From: Candidatus Hydrogenedentes bacterium CG07_land_8_20_14_0_80_42_17
Lineage (GTDB): Bacteria > UBA8481
Assembly (NCBI GenBank): GCA_002780065.1
Contig: PEWQ01000166.1
Span: 1-13,720, forward strand
DNA length: 13,720 nucleotides
Direction of reading: 5' to 3'
In this document: piece by piece, positions 1,118 to 13,695 of the stretch
Numbering within the stretch: position 1 is the stretch's first letter
Layout of the letters: every line of letters begins with the position of its first letter
The notes under the pieces: generated by a model
Told to the model about the DNA's origin: nothing
Database searches by the model: none
The model's input: only the letters and a program-made list of their open reading frames with translations
Translations under genes and position numbers: made by a program

Positions 1118-2182
1118 TTAATCTTTCAAATAACCTGTCTTGTCCGCTAATTTCAGAATTTTTTTCTTCGCCGGCTCTAGAAGCCACTCATTTGCATTAT
1201 GAATATAGCGAGGATACACGGTCAAACGCTTTTTCAAATTATATCCTAACTTTGCGGCGATATCACTCAATCTTTCTATTTCAGGCCAACTCTTTTCAGG
1301 ATTTATTTCATCTTTAGTCACTGCCGAAATTCCACCCCAATCGTTCAAACCAGATTGAATGTAATCTTCGAGCTTGCCCTGAGAGAGATTTGGCGGAGCC
1401 TGCAGACTTACGCTTTCAGGCAAAATAAGTCTTGCCGCTGTTATTGTGCGTAGAATGTCGTCGTGATCAGGCTCATCAAAATTTGCCATTGCGGTTCCTT
1501 CATGCGCTATAAAATTTTGAATGATAACTTCTTGAATTGCGCCGTAAGCTTCAGCTATTTTTGCTATGATTCGCAGAGACTCGACGCGTTCGTTAAAACT
1601 CTCTCCGATGCCAATAAGTATTCCTGTCGTGAAAGGAACTTTTTCCAGAGAAGCATTTTTCAGCATTTCAATGCGCAGAGCCGGAACTTTACCAGGCGAC
1701 GCTTCATGAGCAAATCCATGCTGTTGAAATCTCGATGAGTGAGTTTCAAGCATCAGCCCCATCGAGCCGCAATAAGGCTTTAGCAATTTAATTTCATCGC
1801 GAGTTAAAATTCCTGCGTTGACATGAGGAATTAAATTTGACTCTTTCAATATTAATTCGCAAATGAAACGAATGTAGTGCACTGTGCTTGAAAATCCGAG
1901 TTGATCGAGCTCAAGCTTTGCTTTTCTTGAAACAGATTCGGGCCTTTCACCGAGAGTAATCAGAGCTTCAGCGGCTCCCTTCAATTCACCGAGTTTTACT
2001 ATCTGCATTACTTCTTCCGGAGTCAGATAACCGGATTCAGGATCGGAATCTTCTCTGCGGAATGCGCAATAACCGCATTTATTTCTGCAGTTGCGAGTTA
2101 ACGGAACAAAAACTTTTGGTGAATATGTTAATGTTTTTCCAAATATTTTGTCTCTGACTTTTTGAGCTTCTTCACTTGTCAT
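1118..2182 (-). CDS. cofG: FO synthase subunit 1, CofG (radical SAM)
   Basis: Partner of CofH in FO synthesis. It performs the second radical SAM reaction that closes the deazaflavin ring. The motif CRNKCGYC (C32, C36, C39 from the ATG at 2182) binds the iron-sulfur cluster, preceded by VPLTRN as in this family. Later stretches include LGERPES, GLMLETHS, TTGILIGIGE and QNFIAHEGTAM, the last a CofG/FbiC-like signature. The protein is 354 residues, a normal family length. I chose the ATG at 2182 because MTSEEAQKVRDKIFG begins the conserved fold. A GTG at 2209 would add nine residues encoded by an adjoining repeat element. No Shine-Dalgarno is visible upstream of 2182, because the repeat runs almost to the start codon. 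cofH follows 11 bases downstream. This separate-gene arrangement differs from the fused FbiC of actinobacteria. Confidence 0.92.
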   Translation of the reverse strand: MTSEEAQKVRDKIFGKTLTYSPKVFVPLTRNCRNKCGYCAFRREDSDPESGYLTPEEVMQIVKLGELKGAAEALITLGERPESVSRKAKLELDQLGFSSTVHYIRFICELILKESNLIPHVNAGILTRDEIKLLKPYCGSMGLMLETHSSRFQQHGFAHEASPGKVPALRIEMLKNASLEKVPFTTGILIGIGESFNERVESLRIIAKIAEAYGAIQEVIIQNFIAHEGTAMANFDEPDHDDILRTITAARLILPESVSLQAPPNLSQGKLEDYIQSGLNDWGGISAVTKDEINPEKSWPEIERLSDIAAKLGYNLKKRLTVYPRYIHNANEWLLEPAKKKILKLADKTGYLKD

Positions 2183-2185
2183 AAA

Positions 2186-2275
2186 ATAAACCACGAATAA
2201 ATAAACCACGAATAAACACTAAGGCACACTAAAATTTTATAAATAATTCGTGTTTATTCGTGTCTATTCGCGGTT
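2186..2275 (-). repeat. Hairpin-forming repeat element upstream of cofG
   Basis: The 102-base gap between the oxidoreductase stop and cofG is almost filled by an inverted repeat. The left arm AACCACGAATAAACAC (2204-2219) pairs with GTGTCTATTCGCGGTT (2260-2275) over 16 positions with two mismatches. Both mismatches become G-U wobbles in the minus-strand transcript, the direction in which cofG is read. Each arm also carries a second, partial copy of its own motif (ACCACGAATAA at 2190-2200; TTCGTGTTTATTCG at 2247-2260). Such elements with CCACGAATAAACACGAAT-like arms occur dispersed in many bacterial genomes. Whether it acts as an RNA processing or attenuation signal, or is a neutral mobile remnant, cannot be told here. 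Confidence 0.7.
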
Positions 2276-2283
2276 CTAATTTT

Positions 2284-3294
2284 TTACCACTTATTAACTT
2301 CGGGAATTATCTCCTTAATGTAAATATCAAGAATACGTTCTTCGTCATCGGACATTAGATAGAGATTGAATTGATCGACTCCGGCTTTCTTTAAAGCTTT
2401 CAGCTTATTAATATGATCCTCGACTGAGCCAACTATGCAGAAACGATCAACAACCTCATCCGTGATCCAATTGAGATGATTTGAATCTTTGTCCGCGTGT
2501 TGACGGTAGTCGTAGCCTTTTCTGCCGGATATCGCTTTTGTGAATGCTTCAGGTACGTTGCCGCCGGTCTCTCCATACTTCATAACAATATCTGCTACGT
2601 GATTTCCTACCATTGCCGGGAACCATTTGACATGCTTTCTGGCAACCGATTTATCCGAATGAATAAAAACCGGAGCGGCAGACAAAACCTTAATTGAGTT
2701 CGGATCTCTTCCCGCTTCTTTCGCTCCCACATGCGCTCGTTCAATAAACCATGGAATCAGATCAACATCGGCTATTTGAAGAATTATTCCGTCAGCATAT
2801 GTTCCGGCATCTTTCAAAACTTTGGGACCGTAACCTGCAATCCAGATCGGAAGTTTGTAATCAGGGTTTGCCCAGCCGAGCCATTGCTCTTTTCCTTCAT
2901 AGGTGATTTTTTCGCCTTCAGCCATCTTTCTGATGAAGAGCGAAAATTCTTTCATTGTTTGAATAGTCATCGGCTTTTTACCGAGAACGCGCCTGGAGGA
3001 ATCACCGCGCCCGATTCCGATGGCTGCTCTTCCACCTGAAACAACATTTAGTCCGGCAAAGGTTGAAGCAACAACAGTCCAATCTCTGACTCCTGGATTC
3101 GTTACGCACGGACCTAACTTAACTATCGAAGTATTTGCCGCCAAGTATCCGAGCATTACCGAACTTTCACGCCACAGCACATGCGAATCAAATATCCAGA
3201 TATACGTGAACCCGCCTGCTTCCGCGCGCTTTGCAAGTTCTATCGTTCTGCCCGGCGCCATATCTCCCTTGAAAGTGATTCCGAAATTAAGCAT
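2284..3294 (-). CDS. LLM-class flavin/F420-dependent oxidoreductase
   Basis: Luciferase-like monooxygenase-fold TIM-barrel enzyme of 336 residues, of the type that uses reduced F420 (relatives include methylene-tetrahydromethanopterin reductase). Its substrate cannot be predicted. Family marks are an N-terminal FGITFKGDMAPGRTIELAKRA segment, FDSHVLW near 35-41, GGRAAIGIGRGDS at 87-99, LPIWIAGYGPK at 148-158, ADGIILQ at 167-173, and C-terminal CIVGSVEDHINKL at 286-298 followed by AGVDQFNLY. The ATG at 3294 is chosen because MLNFGITF starts the first beta strand and GGAGGA lies just upstream (complement of about 3299-3304). A start at 3384 would add 30 non-conserved residues across the promoter region. 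The neighbouring cofG and cofH make the F420 chromophore, which supports F420 rather than FMN as cofactor, but that is inference. Confidence 0.88.
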   Translation of the reverse strand: MLNFGITFKGDMAPGRTIELAKRAEAGGFTYIWIFDSHVLWRESSVMLGYLAANTSIVKLGPCVTNPGVRDWTVVASTFAGLNVVSGGRAAIGIGRGDSSRRVLGKKPMTIQTMKEFSLFIRKMAEGEKITYEGKEQWLGWANPDYKLPIWIAGYGPKVLKDAGTYADGIILQIADVDLIPWFIERAHVGAKEAGRDPNSIKVLSAAPVFIHSDKSVARKHVKWFPAMVGNHVADIVMKYGETGGNVPEAFTKAISGRKGYDYRQHADKDSNHLNWITDEVVDRFCIVGSVEDHINKLKALKKAGVDQFNLYLMSDDEERILDIYIKEIIPEVNKW

Positions 3295-3327
3295 AAACTC
3301 CTCCAATCTGAAATGAATTACACAATT

Positions 3328-3356
3328 AGAATGAAAAATAATCTGCCTTTTGTCAA
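3328..3356 (-). promoter_or_regulatory. Putative sigma70-type promoter for the LLM oxidoreductase-cofG-cofH operon
   Basis: On the minus strand a perfect -35 TTGACA (complement of 3351-3356) is followed after 17 bases by CATTCT (complement of 3328-3333), a weak -10 with three of six matches. TCTAAT slightly further on is a better -10 sequence but at about 20 bases. Transcription would start about 25 bases before the GGAGGA and ATG of the oxidoreductase gene. The -35 box and the position are convincing; the -10 box is uncertain. Confidence 0.4.
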
Positions 3357-3375
3357 ATAATTTTATTTTAAATAC

Positions 3376-3408
3376 GAACCACAAAAATAAAATTAGTGCG
3401 CATTAGTG
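3376..3408. repeat. Short intergenic repeat remnant between the cyclase and oxidoreductase genes
   Basis: The gap holds GAACCAC (3376-3382), an AT-rich stretch, and TTAGTG twice (3393-3398 and 3403-3408) around CGCA. The composition recalls the element upstream of cofG, which has AACCAC-ended arms and a TTAGTG-like centre, so it may be a decayed or half copy. The match is short and could be chance. Confidence 0.3.
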
Positions 3409-7946: not shown

Positions 7947-8090
7947 GACATTCTCCTAATTTGTAGATTAGCATTAGATGAGAAACTACTTCCGTCAAAC
8001 CGAGAAGTCAAATCAGAATTAAGAGCGAGCTGGGAATGTAGAGATACAAAGTATGCCAGGAGATACGGCAGAATAAGGATGCGCCGCAAT

Positions 8091-8265
8091 CACAGGCGAG
8101 GCGTCCATTGCCGCGAGGCGTCCATTGACGCGAGGCGCCCATTGATGCGAGGGCGTCCATTGACGCGAGGCGCCCATTGACGCGAGGCGTCCATTGACGC
8201 GAGGCGTCCATTGACGCGAGGCGCCCATTGACGCGAGGGCGTCCATTGACGCGAGGACGCCCGTG
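8091..8265 (+). repeat. Tandem array 1: nine copies of a 17-bp palindromic unit upstream of atpE
   Basis: Nine head-to-tail units with consensus GCGTCCATTGACGCGAG start at 8101, 8118, 8135, 8153, 8170, 8187, 8204, 8221 and 8239; two joins carry one extra G. Each unit contains GCGTC, a four-base loop CATT, and GACGC, a perfect five-base-pair hairpin. Three units have GCGCC, which keeps a G-U wobble only in the minus-strand transcript. The array is bounded by CACAGGCG (8091-8098) and CGCCCGTG (8258-8265), imperfect inverted repeats with one mismatch. It occupies much of the 437-base gap between the aminotransferase and atpE. The rest of that gap holds the aminotransferase leader and the atpE leader. 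The 17-base period shifts frame, and the long open frames through it are not genes. Confidence 0.93.
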
Positions 8266-8292
8266 GCTCCAAGAAAAAGAAATTTCATATTA

Positions 8293-8320
8293 CTTACAAA
8301 AGCATTTGCAACTTTATAAA
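8293..8320 (+). promoter_or_regulatory. Possible promoter of the atpE-atpF-atpH operon
   Basis: CTTACA (8293-8298, four of six to -35) and TATAAA (8315-8320, five of six to -10) are 16 bases apart in an AT-rich stretch. Transcription would begin near 8327, giving a leader of about 57 bases that contains the inverted repeat at 8342-8359. TATATT at 8334-8339 is another -10 candidate without a -35. Weak evidence in AT-rich DNA. Confidence 0.3.
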
Positions 8321-8341
8321 ATTTATGGCAAATTATATTTT

Positions 8342-8359
8342 CACTCATAATGTTGAGTG
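8342..8359 (+). promoter_or_regulatory. Perfect 6-bp inverted repeat in the atpE leader
   Basis: CACTCA (8342-8347) and TGAGTG (8354-8359) are exact inverted repeats around a six-base centre, ending 24 bases before the atpE ATG and 12 before its Shine-Dalgarno GGAGG. It could be a small RNA stem-loop or a dimeric regulator site. An 18-base palindrome this short may also be chance. Confidence 0.35.
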
Positions 8360-8383
8360 TAAGAAATTAATGGAGGTAGATAG

Positions 8384-8611
8384 ATGCCGGATGCAATTAC
8401 AGCACTAAATTCGCTCGGACTTGGACTTGGATTGGGACTCGTTTTGATTGGAGCGGCAAAAGGTATAGCTCAAATCGGAGCGGCCGCTGTCGAGTCATCT
8501 GCACGTCAGCCGGAGATTACCGGCAAGTTACAGACAATGATGATTATTGCGGCAGGAATGATTGAAGGCGCGGCGCTTTTCGCAATTGTAGTACTCGGAT
8601 TCATTAAGTAA
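8384..8611 (+). CDS. atpE: F-type ATP synthase subunit c
   Basis: Membrane proteolipid of 75 residues that forms the rotating c-ring of the FoF1 ATP synthase. Two membrane helices are visible: the first with the glycine motif GxGxGxG (G12, G14, G16, G18) that packs the ring, the second with the ion-carrying carboxylate E61 in AAGMIEGAALF. The cytoplasmic loop has the conserved R41-Q42-P43 that contacts gamma and epsilon. The residue after E61 is glycine rather than the serine or threonine of sodium-binding rings, so proton coupling is likely. A strong Shine-Dalgarno GGAGG (8372-8376) precedes the ATG. atpF starts 13 bases after its stop. No subunit a gene (atpB) lies upstream; an unrelated minus-strand gene and the 17-bp array are there instead. 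Confidence 0.96.
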   Translation: MPDAITALNSLGLGLGLGLVLIGAAKGIAQIGAAAVESSARQPEITGKLQTMMIIAAGMIEGAALFAIVVLGFIK

Positions 8612-8624
8612 TTCAGAGACTAAG

Positions 8625-9194
8625 TTGAGCCTCTTTTACGTTACTCAATTTTCCATTCTTTTGTTGACTGCTTCTCCAGAAGCTGAATCCGGAAGTGCGG
8701 CTTTAGTTACGCCTGATTTTGCGGTTACGATTGCGACATGGATAACTTTTTTCCTACTGCTTTTTTTGCTCGCTAGATTTGGATGGAAGCCTTTTGTCAA
8801 TGCGTTAGATGAGCGGGAAGCGGCTGTTAGAGATGAAGTGAAACGCGCGGAAAATGCCAGACGTGAGGCGGAAGAACTGCTTCAGCAGTATGAGTTAAAA
8901 TTGAAAAACGTTCAATCCGAAGCTGATGCGATTTTGAATACCTCAAGACAGAGAGCGGAAGAAGTTGGAAATAAACTCGAAACTGATGCAAGAGCTTCTG
9001 CTCAGCAAATACTTGAAAAGGCGAAGTTGACAATTGAAGGTGAGCGTCAAAAAGCGGTTTCTGAACTCAAAGGAATCGTTGCAAATGCGGCTTCCGAACT
9101 TACAGAAAAGATATTGAAAGAAGAGTTGGACATGAGCCGCCACGAAAAGTTGGTTGAAGAAGTTGTATCTGGAATTGATCGAAAACGGAATTAA
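8625..9194 (+). CDS. atpF: F-type ATP synthase subunit b
   Basis: Peripheral-stalk subunit of 189 residues, linking membrane subunit a to the F1 head. TPDFAVTIATWITFFLLLFLLARFGWKPFVNALDERE (about 29-65) shows the single membrane helix and the conserved F-x-W-KP-x-x-x-L turn. Residues about 65-160 are a long charged coiled coil rich in A, E, K and R. The frame has no ATG before the coil; the first usable start is the TTG at 8625, with only a weak purine stretch (AGAGA) upstream. Residues 1-28 are an extra hydrophobic stretch and short linker before TPDF, seen in some b subunits and possibly a cleaved signal. A later TTG (8661 or 8664) is less likely, with no ribosome site. The gene sits 13 bases after atpE and 8 before atpH. 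Confidence 0.92.
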   Translation: MSLFYVTQFSILLLTASPEAESGSAALVTPDFAVTIATWITFFLLLFLLARFGWKPFVNALDEREAAVRDEVKRAENARREAEELLQQYELKLKNVQSEADAILNTSRQRAEEVGNKLETDARASAQQILEKAKLTIEGERQKAVSELKGIVANAASELTEKILKEELDMSRHEKLVEEVVSGIDRKRN

Positions 9195-9202
9195 TTAAGC
9201 CG

Positions 9203-9700
9203 ATGCTAAAAAATCCATCTCTTACGAAACGATATGCAAAAGGACTTTTTGAAGCTACAAAAGGAACTATAGATCTTGCTCGGCTGGAAGCGGGTCTCAT
9301 TGGAAAAGAAAAAGAGTTGTCACGGCCGAGAATGACAGTTAATGAATTGATTAAGCTTTGCGGATTCGAACCGCCGCGGCCGGTAAGAGCTCTTCTTGCT
9401 ATTTTGATTAGGAGAAAACGGCAAAACTTATTGCCGGAAATCGCAGAGGCATATCGGATAATCTCTGAAGAGATGCAGGGAATAAAGAGAGCAGAGGTGA
9501 CAACTGCAGTTCCTCTGAACTCTAAAACGAAAAAGAGAATTGAAGAAGAACTGACAAAGAAATACGATGCGAATAAAGTTATAGTTAATAACAGAGTCGA
9601 CAAATCGATCATCGGCGGTTTGCGAATAAAATTCGGAGACACATTGATTGATGGAAGCGTCGAAACATTTCTAAATGTATTTCGTAGCCGTGCATCGTAA
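9203..9700 (+). CDS. atpH: F-type ATP synthase subunit delta (OSCP)
   Basis: Delta subunit that joins the b stalk to the top of the alpha-beta hexamer. The protein is 165 residues, somewhat shorter than the usual 175-185. The N-terminus LTKRYAKGLFEATK matches the family; the helix bundle between about 35 and 65 looks compressed. The middle has LLAILIRRKRQNLLPEIAEAYRII, and the C-terminus has VTTAVPLN, then VDKSIIGGLRIKFGDTLIDGSVETFL, the clear delta signature (GG-x-x-I ... D-x-x-I-D-G-S). It starts 8 bases after atpF, and its stop is the end of the operon here: atpA, G, D and C do not follow. Instead array 2 begins 44 bases downstream and the next gene is convergent. Confidence 0.92.
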   Translation: MLKNPSLTKRYAKGLFEATKGTIDLARLEAGLIGKEKELSRPRMTVNELIKLCGFEPPRPVRALLAILIRRKRQNLLPEIAEAYRIISEEMQGIKRAEVTTAVPLNSKTKKRIEEELTKKYDANKVIVNNRVDKSIIGGLRIKFGDTLIDGSVETFLNVFRSRAS

Positions 9701-9708
9701 TAAAATCT

Positions 9709-9730
9709 AAAAATGAAAATTGCATTTCAT
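9709..9730 (+). repeat. Short AT-rich hairpin after atpH
   Basis: ATGAAA (9713-9718) and TTTCAT (9725-9730) are perfect six-base inverted repeats around ATTGCA, 12 bases after the atpH stop. No U-run follows, so it is at best a weak terminator. The 14-mer AAAAATGAAAATTG (9709-9722) recurs exactly at 13643-13656, where it forms one arm of a larger hairpin, which suggests a dispersed AT-rich repeat family. Confidence 0.4.
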
Positions 9731-9743
9731 CTGGTGGCATGCA

Positions 9744-9897
9744 CGCTATGCGTCAATGGCCGCTATGCGTCAATGGCCGCTCCGCGTTAATCGACGCTAC
9801 GCGTTGATGGACGCTACGCGTTGATGGACGCTACGCGTTGATGGACGCTACGCGTCAATGGACGCTACGCGTCAATGGACGCTCTCGCCTGTGCAAG
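9744..9897 (-). repeat. Tandem array 2: eight copies of the same 17-bp palindromic unit, inverted, downstream of atpH
   Basis: Eight exact 17-base periods begin at 9744, 9761, 9778, 9795, 9812, 9829, 9846 and 9863. Read on the minus strand, the main unit is GCGTCCATTGACGCGTA, identical to the array 1 unit except for the last two bases (TA instead of AG). Three units read GCGTTGATGG on the plus strand, which keeps a G-U wobble pair in plus-strand RNA. The minus-strand end begins with CACAGGCGAG (complement of 9884-9893), the same boundary motif as array 1, so the two arrays are inverted copies. The array starts 44 bases after atpH and its boundary runs up to the stop codon of the convergent hydrolase gene. 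The hairpins may end transcription from both sides. Confidence 0.92.
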
Positions 9898-11868
9898 CTA
9901 CCTAAATAAAAATTTTAGACACTGACCGATTCGTTTTCTCCAGAAAATTTCTTGATGAAAATGACCGTCTGCAATGTAGCCGAATAAATCTTTTCCGTCC
10001 GTCATCCATCGCTCTCTGCAAATTTTCAACAGCTTCAAAGTGATCAACGTGTAGTCATCTCTGTGTGGCTGATCCGGCGCCCAACGGGTGCCGCAGTCTA
10101 TGTACGCTCTTCTGAACGGCCTTTTATGAAGAGCCTCGATCTCTTTCAACTGCGGGTTTCCGCGAATGTAAGCGAATGAAAGAGCTCCGATTAATCCGAA
10201 TATATCTCCACGCCTCAACCCTGCATAAACGGAGACGTTTGCTCCGTATGAAGATCCAATCATTGCGATATGATATGGATCTGCTGAAATATTCCATTTT
10301 TCTCTAAGAAGAGGTAGCAATTTATTCGCAACCCAATCTATGTAGAGGTCGGCTCTGCCAAAGGGCGGCGGAAGATATGCTTTATTTCTGAACCTGTGGC
10401 AATTGATACCGACAAGTATTATTTCAGTCAGAGATCCTCGCTTGACTAACATTTCTGCGATGGAATCTGTATGCCAACCGTTCATTGCTCCCTTATTTGT
10501 CCATTGATTCTGTCCGTCATTTAGGAAAGCTATTGGATATGTATTTGAGTTATCGTAATTTCTAGGGAGCTTTACTGTCACTCTGAATTCATGGCTAAGT
10601 TCGGGACAAGGCACGGTCAAATGGACAAACTGAGGTTTTATTTCATCTATTGGCGGATTATAGGAATAAAAAATTCCGTCACGAAGCCATAATTCCTTTA
10701 ATGCAGGTTTGTAACACATTCCGTATGAAGGATGATCCTCTCCTGATTCGCCTTTGATGAAAAAACCTCTTTTTGAATTCATTTCGAATGTAGATTTAAA
10801 TAATTTTTCATATTGGATTCTTCCTTTGCCCGCTATCTTCATCATAAAGTCGTAATTCTTTTTTTCTTCCACGACCGAAATTATAGGTTTCGACCAGCCT
10901 GAAAAATATTTAAGATGAGTCAACACAGACTCTTTCTGCAGCACAAGATATGATTGTTGATTTTGCTTTGATGAAAAATATTTTTTCCTGCCTATAGCAC
11001 TTCTCTGAAGCACCGGATCGAATGCTATGGTTTTGAAATGCTTCATGATTCCTGTCGGGCATCCTGACGCAAGCCATGAGAGAACCATGCGGGTGATTCT
11101 GTCAGCTTTCGGATTGATCAGTAAACTTCCATGCGAGTATCCTTCGAAGGCATACCAGCTCATCTCCAATTCTCGATACATAATTTTATGGACAACATTG
11201 TTGGGATCGATTCCAAGTATTAACGCCGGGCAGTCTGCTTTTTTGATTTCAGGTCTTTCTATCTCCATCTCACGAAAAGCTTTGCCGGAAAGAAAAGTTT
11301 GTTTGAATAAATTAAGTTGCTCCTGATATTCCTTATCTGATACTCTGCGCCCCCACATCTCTTCGACTATCGCTTTGGAAGGAATAAACTGAATCACTTT
11401 TGGAAGATTGCCTCTCGAGTCGGTAAAATCTTTGGTCGGAGGAATTTTGGCAAGCATTGCAATTTCACGTGCCGGTGAAGGATCATAAAGCAATAACGCT
11501 TTAGCTCCGCCTTTTTCCGCAGAAAGCTGCGCCAGAAGCCCTCCGACTGAGTAGCCGAGAATAATAGTGTTTTCCAGTTTAAGTTCTTTTCTCACTATCG
11601 AAACGTCTTCGAGATAATCTCTGATTGAGAGGTTTGCAACGTCATTGAAAATACTTTTGTAGTAGCCGCGAGGATTCATTGAAAAGACCGGCCAGCCGAG
11701 CGCCGCCATAATCGGAGCAATTCTGGAAAAGATCCACGAGCCGTCAAATGCTCCTGGAATGCATAAAATAGGTTCTCTAGCTGCAACGGTTGAAGGATAA
11801 AAAGCTTCCACAAATAATTTGTTCGGACCTATTGTGTAAGTTCTGTATGAATATTTATCTTTTAACAT
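9898..11868 (-). CDS. Double alpha/beta-hydrolase fusion: N-terminal alpha/beta hydrolase plus C-terminal esterase domain
   Basis: A 656-residue protein without a visible signal peptide. The N-terminal hydrolase (about 15-270) has the oxyanion strand ILCIPGAFDGSW, nucleophile elbow GYSVG with S107, probable acid D221 in LILGID, and H246 in GYSHGS, a full triad. Residues about 280-415 are unrecognised. The C-terminal half (about 425-656) resembles the putative esterase family of enterochelin esterase and esterase D: HEFRVTVKLPRNYD, FLNDGQNQW, the nucleophile elbow GSSYG with S540, and DGHFHQEIFWRKR with H636 as likely catalytic histidine. Both sites therefore look active. The gene follows an ATP-grasp gene by 52 bases on the same strand, with a stem-loop between. 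No Shine-Dalgarno is seen before the ATG, and no upstream in-frame start exists. Substrate unknown; an ester, thioester or amide made by the ATP-grasp partner is a possibility. Confidence 0.8.
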   Translation of the reverse strand: MLKDKYSYRTYTIGPNKLFVEAFYPSTVAAREPILCIPGAFDGSWIFSRIAPIMAALGWPVFSMNPRGYYKSIFNDVANLSIRDYLEDVSIVRKELKLENTIILGYSVGGLLAQLSAEKGGAKALLLYDPSPAREIAMLAKIPPTKDFTDSRGNLPKVIQFIPSKAIVEEMWGRRVSDKEYQEQLNLFKQTFLSGKAFREMEIERPEIKKADCPALILGIDPNNVVHKIMYRELEMSWYAFEGYSHGSLLINPKADRITRMVLSWLASGCPTGIMKHFKTIAFDPVLQRSAIGRKKYFSSKQNQQSYLVLQKESVLTHLKYFSGWSKPIISVVEEKKNYDFMMKIAGKGRIQYEKLFKSTFEMNSKRGFFIKGESGEDHPSYGMCYKPALKELWLRDGIFYSYNPPIDEIKPQFVHLTVPCPELSHEFRVTVKLPRNYDNSNTYPIAFLNDGQNQWTNKGAMNGWHTDSIAEMLVKRGSLTEIILVGINCHRFRNKAYLPPPFGRADLYIDWVANKLLPLLREKWNISADPYHIAMIGSSYGANVSVYAGLRRGDIFGLIGALSFAYIRGNPQLKEIEALHKRPFRRAYIDCGTRWAPDQPHRDDYTLITLKLLKICRERWMTDGKDLFGYIADGHFHQEIFWRKRIGQCLKFLFR

Positions 11869-11920: not shown

Positions 11921-13438
11921 TTATCCCTCAGCTAAAGAACGGTAAGGGCATGGTTCAAGCTTCAAAGCATCGCGGACAAGTTCTACATTCTTCAGCCATT
12001 CGCCGGAAAGTATTCTCCAATTGATTGGATCAACAATTGATTTTCGAGTCATAATGTAGATCAGCGGAATTCCTTCGTCACCGTATCTCGGATGACCGAT
12101 TACAAGATCGTCCCACGGCACTCCGTTTGTCAAAACAAACTCGTCTTCATTTTGTGTATCCGAAAGAGTCCAGCCGTCACGGAGCCGAATAAGTCGCTCT
12201 CCTTCAAATCGATACACTCCCGAAGTAATGCCGCCAGTTGCTCTGAACGTTCCTTTATCTTTCGAATAAATAATCACGGCTGAACCTTCAACATCAGGCA
12301 GTTCATCGTTATAGGCGTCAATATCTTCCGCCTTCACGTCCAGTTCTAGATACTCCGCAAGATGAAAGAAAGTTAAAGGCACAATATCTTTCATTGCCTC
12401 GAAGTCAGCCATGTATTGGGATTCTCCGACGAGTCTGGCATTTATCTCACTTACGAATATTTCTTTAAGTTTAAATTTTTCATCGACAGTTGTAAGAAAA
12501 TCGACTCCGAAATTTCCGCGATATCCGTTCGAGCCGAGCCACAAGCCGATTTTTTTTATAATTTCAAAAACTTCTTCGCGCTCTCCGCTCGTAAGACCTT
12601 GCCGTGAAAAATCAGAACCGATATACATTGCAGGATTTGTTACTAGTCTTGGATCGCCTACTATTTGTATATCCGGAGGCGATACAGCGACTGTTCCGTT
12701 GACTACACAGCCGGTGCAATTTAGGCTTGGCCCGGAAAGAAATGGAGTTATCTTGACCGTGGTTCGATCAAATGACTTGCCGAGCATATTTCGTTTTTCT
12801 TCGATGACTTTTTGATAGTCGCCTTCACTGAAAATAAAATCTGTTCCGCCTCCATGCTGAGAATGCGGAACCTGAATGACGTAACCTTCTGGAAATTGCT
12901 GAATCAATTTTTGGTGAGAGACATTTGAGAACGGAGAGAGCATTGCTTGCGCAGGCAATGGGATTCCGATCTCTTCGGCTTTCCACGCAAGTAATGTTTT
13001 GTCCTCAAAGTAATCTTGAATTACGCATGTGTTCTGGAAGAACTGAAGTCTTGGAGCTTTTTTGAAGACGAAGTCGAGCAGCGTTTGAGAAGGTTGAAAA
13101 GGAATCATGAATATCTCGCCTTCTACTCTGTCCAGCGCCGCAAGTATCTCTCTCTCGTGGTCCTGATAAAAATAATTAATAAAGAGAGAGGATGTGCTGT
13201 GTCTTACTCTTTTATTTTTTTCGTATGAAAAGACAGGAGTGCCCCAGTCGCTTTCAATATGCTTTTGAACCTCTTCGCCATAATACTCGGCAATGACTGC
13301 CGCAATTGGCAGAAAGTGTTTGAACATGTGTGCTCCGAGCGGACCTAAACCATTGTAAACTACGGAGCGATTTCGAAACCAACCTTTTTGAGAAGAAACC
13401 TTTTTGAGTGTTGTAAGACTTTCAATCGGACTTGACAT
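11921..13438 (-). CDS. ATP-grasp fold ligase-like protein
   Basis: A 505-residue protein with an ATP-grasp core, the fold that joins a carboxylate to an amine or thiol through an acyl phosphate. In order: a Rossmann-like preATP-grasp part (about 20-135, with VVYNGLGPLGAHMFKHF), then FEDKTLLAWKAEEIGIPLPAQ (K147, the first ATP-binding lysine), VIQVPHSQHGGGTDF (glycine-rich loop G196-G198), an EINARLVGESQ metal-binding motif (E331, N333, R335) preceded by GNFGVDF (D313), and an unassigned C-terminal part (about 380-505). The family substrate cannot be named; it does not look like biotin carboxylase, D-Ala-D-Ala ligase or glutathione synthetase. The ATG has an excellent Shine-Dalgarno GGGAGGT (complement of about 13445-13451) and a good promoter. 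It is the first gene of a pair with the double hydrolase. Confidence 0.82.
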   Translation of the reverse strand: MSSPIESLTTLKKVSSQKGWFRNRSVVYNGLGPLGAHMFKHFLPIAAVIAEYYGEEVQKHIESDWGTPVFSYEKNKRVRHSTSSLFINYFYQDHEREILAALDRVEGEIFMIPFQPSQTLLDFVFKKAPRLQFFQNTCVIQDYFEDKTLLAWKAEEIGIPLPAQAMLSPFSNVSHQKLIQQFPEGYVIQVPHSQHGGGTDFIFSEGDYQKVIEEKRNMLGKSFDRTTVKITPFLSGPSLNCTGCVVNGTVAVSPPDIQIVGDPRLVTNPAMYIGSDFSRQGLTSGEREEVFEIIKKIGLWLGSNGYRGNFGVDFLTTVDEKFKLKEIFVSEINARLVGESQYMADFEAMKDIVPLTFFHLAEYLELDVKAEDIDAYNDELPDVEGSAVIIYSKDKGTFRATGGITSGVYRFEGERLIRLRDGWTLSDTQNEDEFVLTNGVPWDDLVIGHPRYGDEGIPLIYIMTRKSIVDPINWRILSGEWLKNVELVRDALKLEPCPYRSLAEG

Positions 13439-13550: not shown

Positions 13551-13618
13551 GAACCACGCAGTTACCAAGACACTGAGATTTTTTATTTTATCTTTTTTTC
13601 CTTGCCTCCAGCCTATCT
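13551..13618. repeat. Remnant of a CACAGAGAC-type dispersed repeat
   Basis: GAACCACGCAG, ACCAAGACACTGAGA and an A/T-rich run (about 13551-13588) look like one arm of the element seen at 6725-6797. The other arm (TTTCCTTGCCTCC, about 13596-13608) is degenerate. No coding potential is seen in 13494-13720. Confidence 0.35.
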
Positions 13619-13637
13619 TCCAAAGAACGTGTGAAAT

Positions 13638-13695
13638 AATTGAAAAATGAAAATTGGAAAAATAAAATTTTCAATTTGCACTTTTCAATTTGCAC
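13638..13695. repeat. AT-rich hairpin with a duplicated 14-mer near the right edge
   Basis: AATTGAAAAATGAAAATTG (13638-13656) pairs with CAATTTGCACTTTTCAATT (13672-13690) over 19 positions with two mismatches. TTTTCAATTTGCAC occurs twice head to tail (13668-13681 and 13682-13695), so the right arm grew by an exact duplication. The 14-mer shared with 9709-9722 marks it as part of a dispersed family. It may be a terminator for an unseen gene to the right, but there is nothing to show that. Confidence 0.55.

Follow-up and report, generated by a model that had tools for sequence, protein, structure and literature searches.

Two hairpin arrays around atpE-atpF-atpH are the tips of a dispersed REP/BIME-like palindromic element

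Descriptions of REP and BIME elements usually give each unit a single hairpin. REP, BIME and REPIN sequences are short, high-copy intergenic palindromes with a tetranucleotide at the foot, a lower stem, an internal loop and an upper stem, and they form inverted pairs with conserved spacers, heterodimers and mosaics with alternating linkers (PMC3733652, PMC8266576, PMC6006769). In the pneumococcal BOX element, there is hardly any pairing between boxB and the ends, which lets the number of boxB modules vary (PMC3049150). The BrickBuilt MITE of Porphyromonas gingivalis exists in 19 copies and contains a minisatellite of 23-bp units (PMC4596501). In this study, the two hairpin arrays around atpE-atpF-atpH were found to be the tips of two copies of a dispersed palindromic element of REP/BIME-like kind, an unusual variant whose tip hairpin can be stretched. 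We consider it very probable that the arrays belong to such a REP/BIME-like element with an expandable tip, which would have spread as single-stranded DNA, grown locally and arrived independently at the two sides of atpE-F-H.

The window is the whole stretch of 13,720 nucleotides that was analysed. A sequence-only reading had described nine and eight 17-bp hairpin units, in opposite orientation, on the two sides of atpE-atpF-atpH, with the motif CACAGGCGAG outside each array, and this layout was confirmed. The left array has nine units at 8101-8252, where the unit reads GCGTCCATTGACGC on the + strand. The right array has eight units at 9750-9882, where the unit is read on the - strand. The outer motif lies at 8091-8100, and its reverse complement lies at 9884-9893. 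At up to 3 mismatches the window contained 33 matches to the unit, compared with 0.88 expected from dinucleotide shuffles. Tandem Repeats Finder gave a period of 17 for both arrays (scores 269 and 192), and an 86-bp higher-order repeat lies inside the left one. Two variable bases had been read between the units; the linker proved to be 3 nt, in some cases 4 nt, and it is mostly GAG in the left array and GTA in the right array. The genes between the arrays are neighbours only and lie on the + strand: atpE (F0 subunit c, 8384-8611, Pfam PF00137), atpF (subunit b, 8625-9194, Pfam PF00430) and atpH (subunit delta, 9203-9700, Pfam PF00213). The left array stands between divergent genes, in a promoter region, and the right array between convergent genes. 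The atpE-F-H genes (8384-9700) are apart from the other ATP-synthase genes; a genome from the same taxonomic order has an atpB-like gene upstream of atpE.

On the strand that carries GGAG, the element reads GGAG and then a 9-nt arm. A linker, mostly CTAC, leads to n units of GCGTC-AATG-GACGC, each followed by 3 nt, and a second, short linker leads to the matching arm. The number of units ranged from 0 to about 10. Where the arms were perfect, their spacing was quantised at about 3+17n, with peaks at 3-4, 19-21, 37-38 and 54-55 nt. The arms exist in three versions: A (GCACAGGCG/CGCCTGTGC), B (GCACGTGCG/CGCACGTGC) and C (GCACGCACG/CGTGCGTGC). Across 53 elements, 425 of the 477 arm positions match, compared with 384 (sd 6, maximum 411) when the partners were shuffled. 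In 19 unaltered elements with n=1, 96.6% of cells pair versus 91.0% after shuffling, and there were 18 double changes versus 6.8, a number reached in 0 of 500 shuffles. Compensatory changes between the three versions preserve the lower stem. When folded as single-stranded DNA, a single-unit element forms GGAG, 9 bp, an internal loop, 5 bp and AATG, with z values of -4.97 (A) and -4.38 (B). The hairpin measures 9 bp in the lower stem, 4/2 nt in the internal loop, 5 bp in the upper stem and 4 nt in the loop. The tetranucleotide at the foot is GGAG in 44 of the 53 elements and GTAG in none; the inner units have GTAG, GTGG or GAGG at their foot when the other strand is read. The array thus belongs to a larger element whose arms covary and fold, and CACAGGCGAG is one arm plus a linker. 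The outer motif of the sequence-only reading is present, but it is only one arm of a stem.

In other copies, the partner of CACAGGCGAG is CGCCTGTGCCTCC. In the left copy, which runs on the - strand, this partner has decayed to CGCCCGTGGCTCC (8258-8270), where GGAG forms the hairpin foot at 8267-8270 and the lower-stem arm CCACGGGCG, with 7 of 9 pairs left, occupies 8258-8266. Its nine hairpin units are 17-18 bp long, GCGTC AATG GACGC with CTC/CCTC linkers. The other lower-stem arm is the A-type CGCCTGTGA at 8090-8098, and beyond it lies a decayed 20-nt tail spacer at 8070-8089, which reads TTGCGGCGCATCCTTATTCT; the genome consensus is AAGCTACGCATGCTTATCCA. The right copy runs on the + strand. 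The end of an AT-rich head-to-head linker, TGAAAATTGCATTTCATCT, lies at 9714-9732 and matches the flank CTCCAGATGARATGYAATWTTC of other B/C-type heads. GGTG, a variant of GGAG, forms the foot at 9733-9736, and the C-like lower-stem arm GCATGCACG follows at 9737-9745. Then come the eight 17-bp units with TAC/TAT/TCC linkers and the A-type arm CGCCTGTGC at 9886-9894, in which only 5 of 9 positions pair with the C-like arm. In this copy the partner of CACAGGCGAG was swapped for another version, GGTG GCATGCACG (9733-9745); the right copy is therefore a mosaic of a C-like first arm and an A-type second arm.

The tail spacer of the right copy starts with AAGCTAC (9895-9901, + strand), which contains the TAG stop (9898-9900) of the convergent - strand gene at 9898-11868. 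This gene encodes 656 aa with alpha/beta hydrolase and esterase domains, and the insertion may have set the end of its protein, since the tail of the element supplies the stop. Elsewhere in the window (1118-3384), CofG, for F420 precursor synthesis, lies beside an F420-dependent LLM-class oxidoreductase (TIGR03842), and this pair suggests that the organism makes F420. The best CofG matches, at 43-52% identity, are spread over many phyla and give no useful placement. A 505-aa protein at 11921-13438 had no Pfam match and showed a weak, sub-cut-off similarity to biotin carboxylase (ATP-grasp-like).

The unit was counted in the whole 2.39-Mb genome. At up to 1 mismatch there were 221 units, 111 forward and 110 reverse, and the reversed-pattern control in the same search gave 0 matches. 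Arrays were surveyed in 101 genome stretches (1.08 Mb), picked partly for holding arrays, and 82 arrays with 212 units were found there. As the surveyed stretches hold 186 of the 221 units, the whole genome has about 97 arrays; the unit counts may be imperfect, because the assembly is fragmented and arrays often lie at contig ends. Where the gene context was readable, 33 of 34 sites were intergenic. Neighbouring arrays were paired as ++ (7), -+ (5), -- (5) and +- (4). Seven neighbour pairs were closer than 1.8 kb, against about 6.8 expected from random placement, and five of the seven were composites of less than 200 bp. In the only genome of the same taxonomic order that was compared, a distant one that lacks the element, atpE-F-H stand in the same gene order without arrays. 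The bracketing of atpE-atpF-atpH by two arrays is a coincidence. The sequence-only reading had itself named occurrence at many unrelated intergenic sites in random orientation as a sign of coincidence; the arrays stand at about a hundred sites in mixed orientation, and a special link to the atp operon was not supported. Its option of an insertable repeat that landed twice was supported, and its view that the shared boundary motif reflects common ancestry of both arrays was borne out.

The same reading had also offered a device that flips or excises the atp cassette. In favour of such a recombination device, the window arrays are inverted, their complementarity reaches 81% over 89 nt, and their best shared stretch is 21 nt at 95%. 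However, neighbouring pairs elsewhere occur in all orientations and at the spacing expected by chance, the sites are dispersed genome-wide, and no recombinase gene was found within the window. An invertible or excisable cassette would have a site-specific recombinase together with exact inverted sites that occur at that cassette alone, a combination that was not found here. We regard a flipping device as very improbable. The arrays could also be an artefact of assembly. For 48 of the 82 arrays there was no gene call on one side, mostly from nearness to contig ends, and some flanks contain N. But the units of the window arrays differ and are ordered, unique genes flank both arrays within one contig, and the arm spacing is quantised across independent contigs, so that an artefact is barely credible.

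Another explanation is that the elements persist chiefly because they terminate transcription or stabilise mRNA 3' ends, and not as mobile repeats. Convergent genes flank 9 of 33 sites, somewhat more than the convergent share of intergenic bases (12%, p 0.012) or of regions (15%, p 0.053) would give, and the RNA fold of the right array is strong (z -3.48). In the unit stems, G-T pairs outnumbered A-C mismatches on the GGAG strand by 43 to 13 (per array, p 7e-5), a count inflated by shared descent of the variants. Such an excess is expected of a functional RNA or single-stranded DNA strand, and it hints that the GGAG strand is the folding strand. Against this role, divergent genes flank nine sites, the arrays showed no T-run terminator, and the RNA fold of the left array was barely above shuffled sequence (z -1.70). 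We believe that a terminator or stabiliser role is possible but rather doubtful as the main reason for their presence. For a mobile REP/BIME-like element, any action would at most be local: the right copy, between convergent genes, could terminate transcription or protect 3' ends.

The arrays grow locally. Linkers were identical in 64% of comparisons within arrays versus 18% between arrays (permutation maximum 29%), and adjacent units were identical in 42% of cases versus 29% for distant units. This likeness of linkers and units, like the 86-bp higher-order repeat of the left window array, is consistent with slippage or unequal exchange once an element has inserted. A further scan, blind to sequence and leaving out the GCGTC family, looked for perfect 5-bp/4-nt hairpins repeated at least 3 times at one period of 15 to 30. 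It gave one case at period 28 and three at period 17, and the latter combine a GACAC or GAATC stem with a CATT-type loop and a 3-nt linker. Two further families of 17-bp hairpins were thus seen beside the GCGTC family. One, GACAC CATT/CATC GTGTC plus GTA/GTG/GTT, has about five sites (L092:7188-7286; L139:14-95; L052 near 13600-13660 on the - strand; L076; L078), most of which are flanked on one side by GTAGCAAAAGATTTAGGGAAACTCC. The other, GAATC CATT GATTC plus AAG, forms five units at L063:3181-3262, just upstream of a gene start. A 21-bp array of six units (L130:7083-7199) inside a REP-like repeat, which reads GTAGGGGCGAAC... on the other strand, looked similar but was not counted, as its outer stem is nested differently.

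That three families in one genome share a geometry but not a stem calls for a common mechanism; they may descend from one ancestor or have arisen by one process. A RAYT-type single-strand nuclease might take each 17-nt unit as a minimal substrate of tetranucleotide plus hairpin and build arrays, copying the geometry and not the sequence. If this were true, the GCGTC, GACAC and GAATC families would be products of one structure-templated amplification process; at present we think it unlikely. The two further families also bear on the idea that a sequence-specific DNA-binding protein, for instance one that organises the chromosome, uses the arrays as platforms. Tandem quasi-palindromic sites across many intergenic regions would suit such a protein, but the other 17-bp arrays keep the geometry and change the stem (GACAC, GAATC), and it is pairing and spacing that are conserved rather than one sequence. 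A binding platform therefore seems quite improbable.

The elements are also joined into inverted composites. Eleven intact inverted heterodimers were found, six A-B and five A-C, and never A-A. In the tail-to-tail joint, an A-type element meets a B- or C-type element across a fixed 20-nt spacer, AAGCTACGCATGCTTATCCA. An AT-rich module beside 21 of 42 A heads serves as the head-to-head linker, and B/C heads are followed by what looks like its other end. A second palindrome of the classical GTAG type, GTAGCCGCAGGCTTTAGCCTGCG, occurs in 29 copies at up to 2 mismatches, several of them beside array elements. At the contig end, the window has a short 14-bp repeat, TTTTCAATTTGCAC (13668-13695), which resembles the AT-rich linker; repeats of this kind seem to break the assembly.

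The REP/BIME-like element probably spread as a non-autonomous single-stranded DNA element, with the likely help of a RAYT-family Y1 HUH transposase. After insertion, the tip hairpin would have been duplicated locally, by slippage or unequal exchange between units, to give the 17-bp arrays, and the two copies around atpE-F-H would have arrived or been shuffled there independently. Four Y1_Tnp genes were found in the genome, each matching the NCBIfam model for REP-associated tyrosine transposases (NF047646) below its cut-off. None of the four is clearly flanked by array elements. An n=0 element lies 127 bp upstream of one of them, on contig C2, and this contig ends within the gene. We estimate that one such neighbour would arise by chance about half the time; with so many copies it is not significant, and adjacency was rejected as proof of partnership. 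Two other RAYT-like genes (L150:990-1925 and L152:985-1940) are flanked by long inverted repeats of their own, read by eye as GGGGTCAGGCTTGAAC... and GGTGCC..GTCTTATAGTTATATAGTTATT. The RAYT-like gene at L153:1387-2019 carries several GGGACAGGGCACCGCCCTGTCC-type palindromes within its reading frame, apparently in frame.

The element was also sought outside this genome, and no copy turned up in the genomes searched. In 60 relatives the unit gave only scattered matches, and the element head in 98 genomes was not accompanied by a hairpin in the contexts of its matches. Matches to GGAGGCACAGGCG in distant genomes were ascribed to chance, as none was followed by a hairpin. The period-17 CCATTG core, with 72 occurrences in its own genome, was absent from 385 other genomes, and ten viral matches to it were unrelated tandem repeats. 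The tandem unit pattern was not found in genome_contigs and viral_contigs, where records of the own genome were possibly excluded. The window gave no Rfam match and no tRNA, and a text search of the literature for the element sequences found none.

The sequence-only reading had argued that REP/BIME elements do not usually look like this, which is true of the strict 17-bp arrays. The remaining anatomy, however, is REP/BIME-like: a bulged hairpin, a fixed foot tetranucleotide, inverted pairs, two alternating linkers and intergenic dispersal. A REP hairpin has a paired lower stem of 7-20 nt, a small bulge, an upper stem and a short loop, and this form is found here; the internal loop of 4/2 nt is slightly above the 1-3 nt of the REP definition. 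Like REPs, the element is dispersed in high copy number, with about 97 arrays, and lies mostly between genes, as at 33 of the 34 readable sites. Its 11 A-B or A-C pairs with the 20-nt spacer correspond to the inverted pairs with conserved spacers of BIMEs and REPINs. RAYT-like genes are present in this genome, as with REP/BIME/REPIN, and their partnership with the element is putative. Described REPs have a GTAG/GTGG foot, whereas the foot here is GGAG; because the tetranucleotide differs, the element is not classed as a GTAG-REP. An upper hairpin in tandem, up to about 10 at a 17-bp period, was not found described in the parts of the REP literature consulted. Apart from the GGAG foot and the tandem tip, the element follows the REP/BIME/REPIN plan.

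For the tandem tip, other systems offer likenesses. BOX (boxA - boxB(n) - boxC) shares the plan of two end modules around a variable tandem inner module (PMC3049150), a likeness of architecture only. Its modules are larger, about 50 nt for boxA and boxC, compared with the 17-bp unit here; BOX resembles the ends of ISSpn2 and not REP, and no sequence relation to the present element is expected. BrickBuilt is also intergenic, with a minisatellite between leader and tail and small inverted repeats (PMC4596501). Unlike in BrickBuilt, the units here are hairpins themselves, and the ends pair as a covarying stem that has GGAG at its foot. A tip that expands from 0 to about 10 units above a covarying lower stem separates the foot and lower stem, which must be recognised, from a tip that varies freely. 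The many natural length variants are suited to testing the needs of single-strand transposases and RNA-processing enzymes. Overall, REP-like and BOX-like plans meet in one element.
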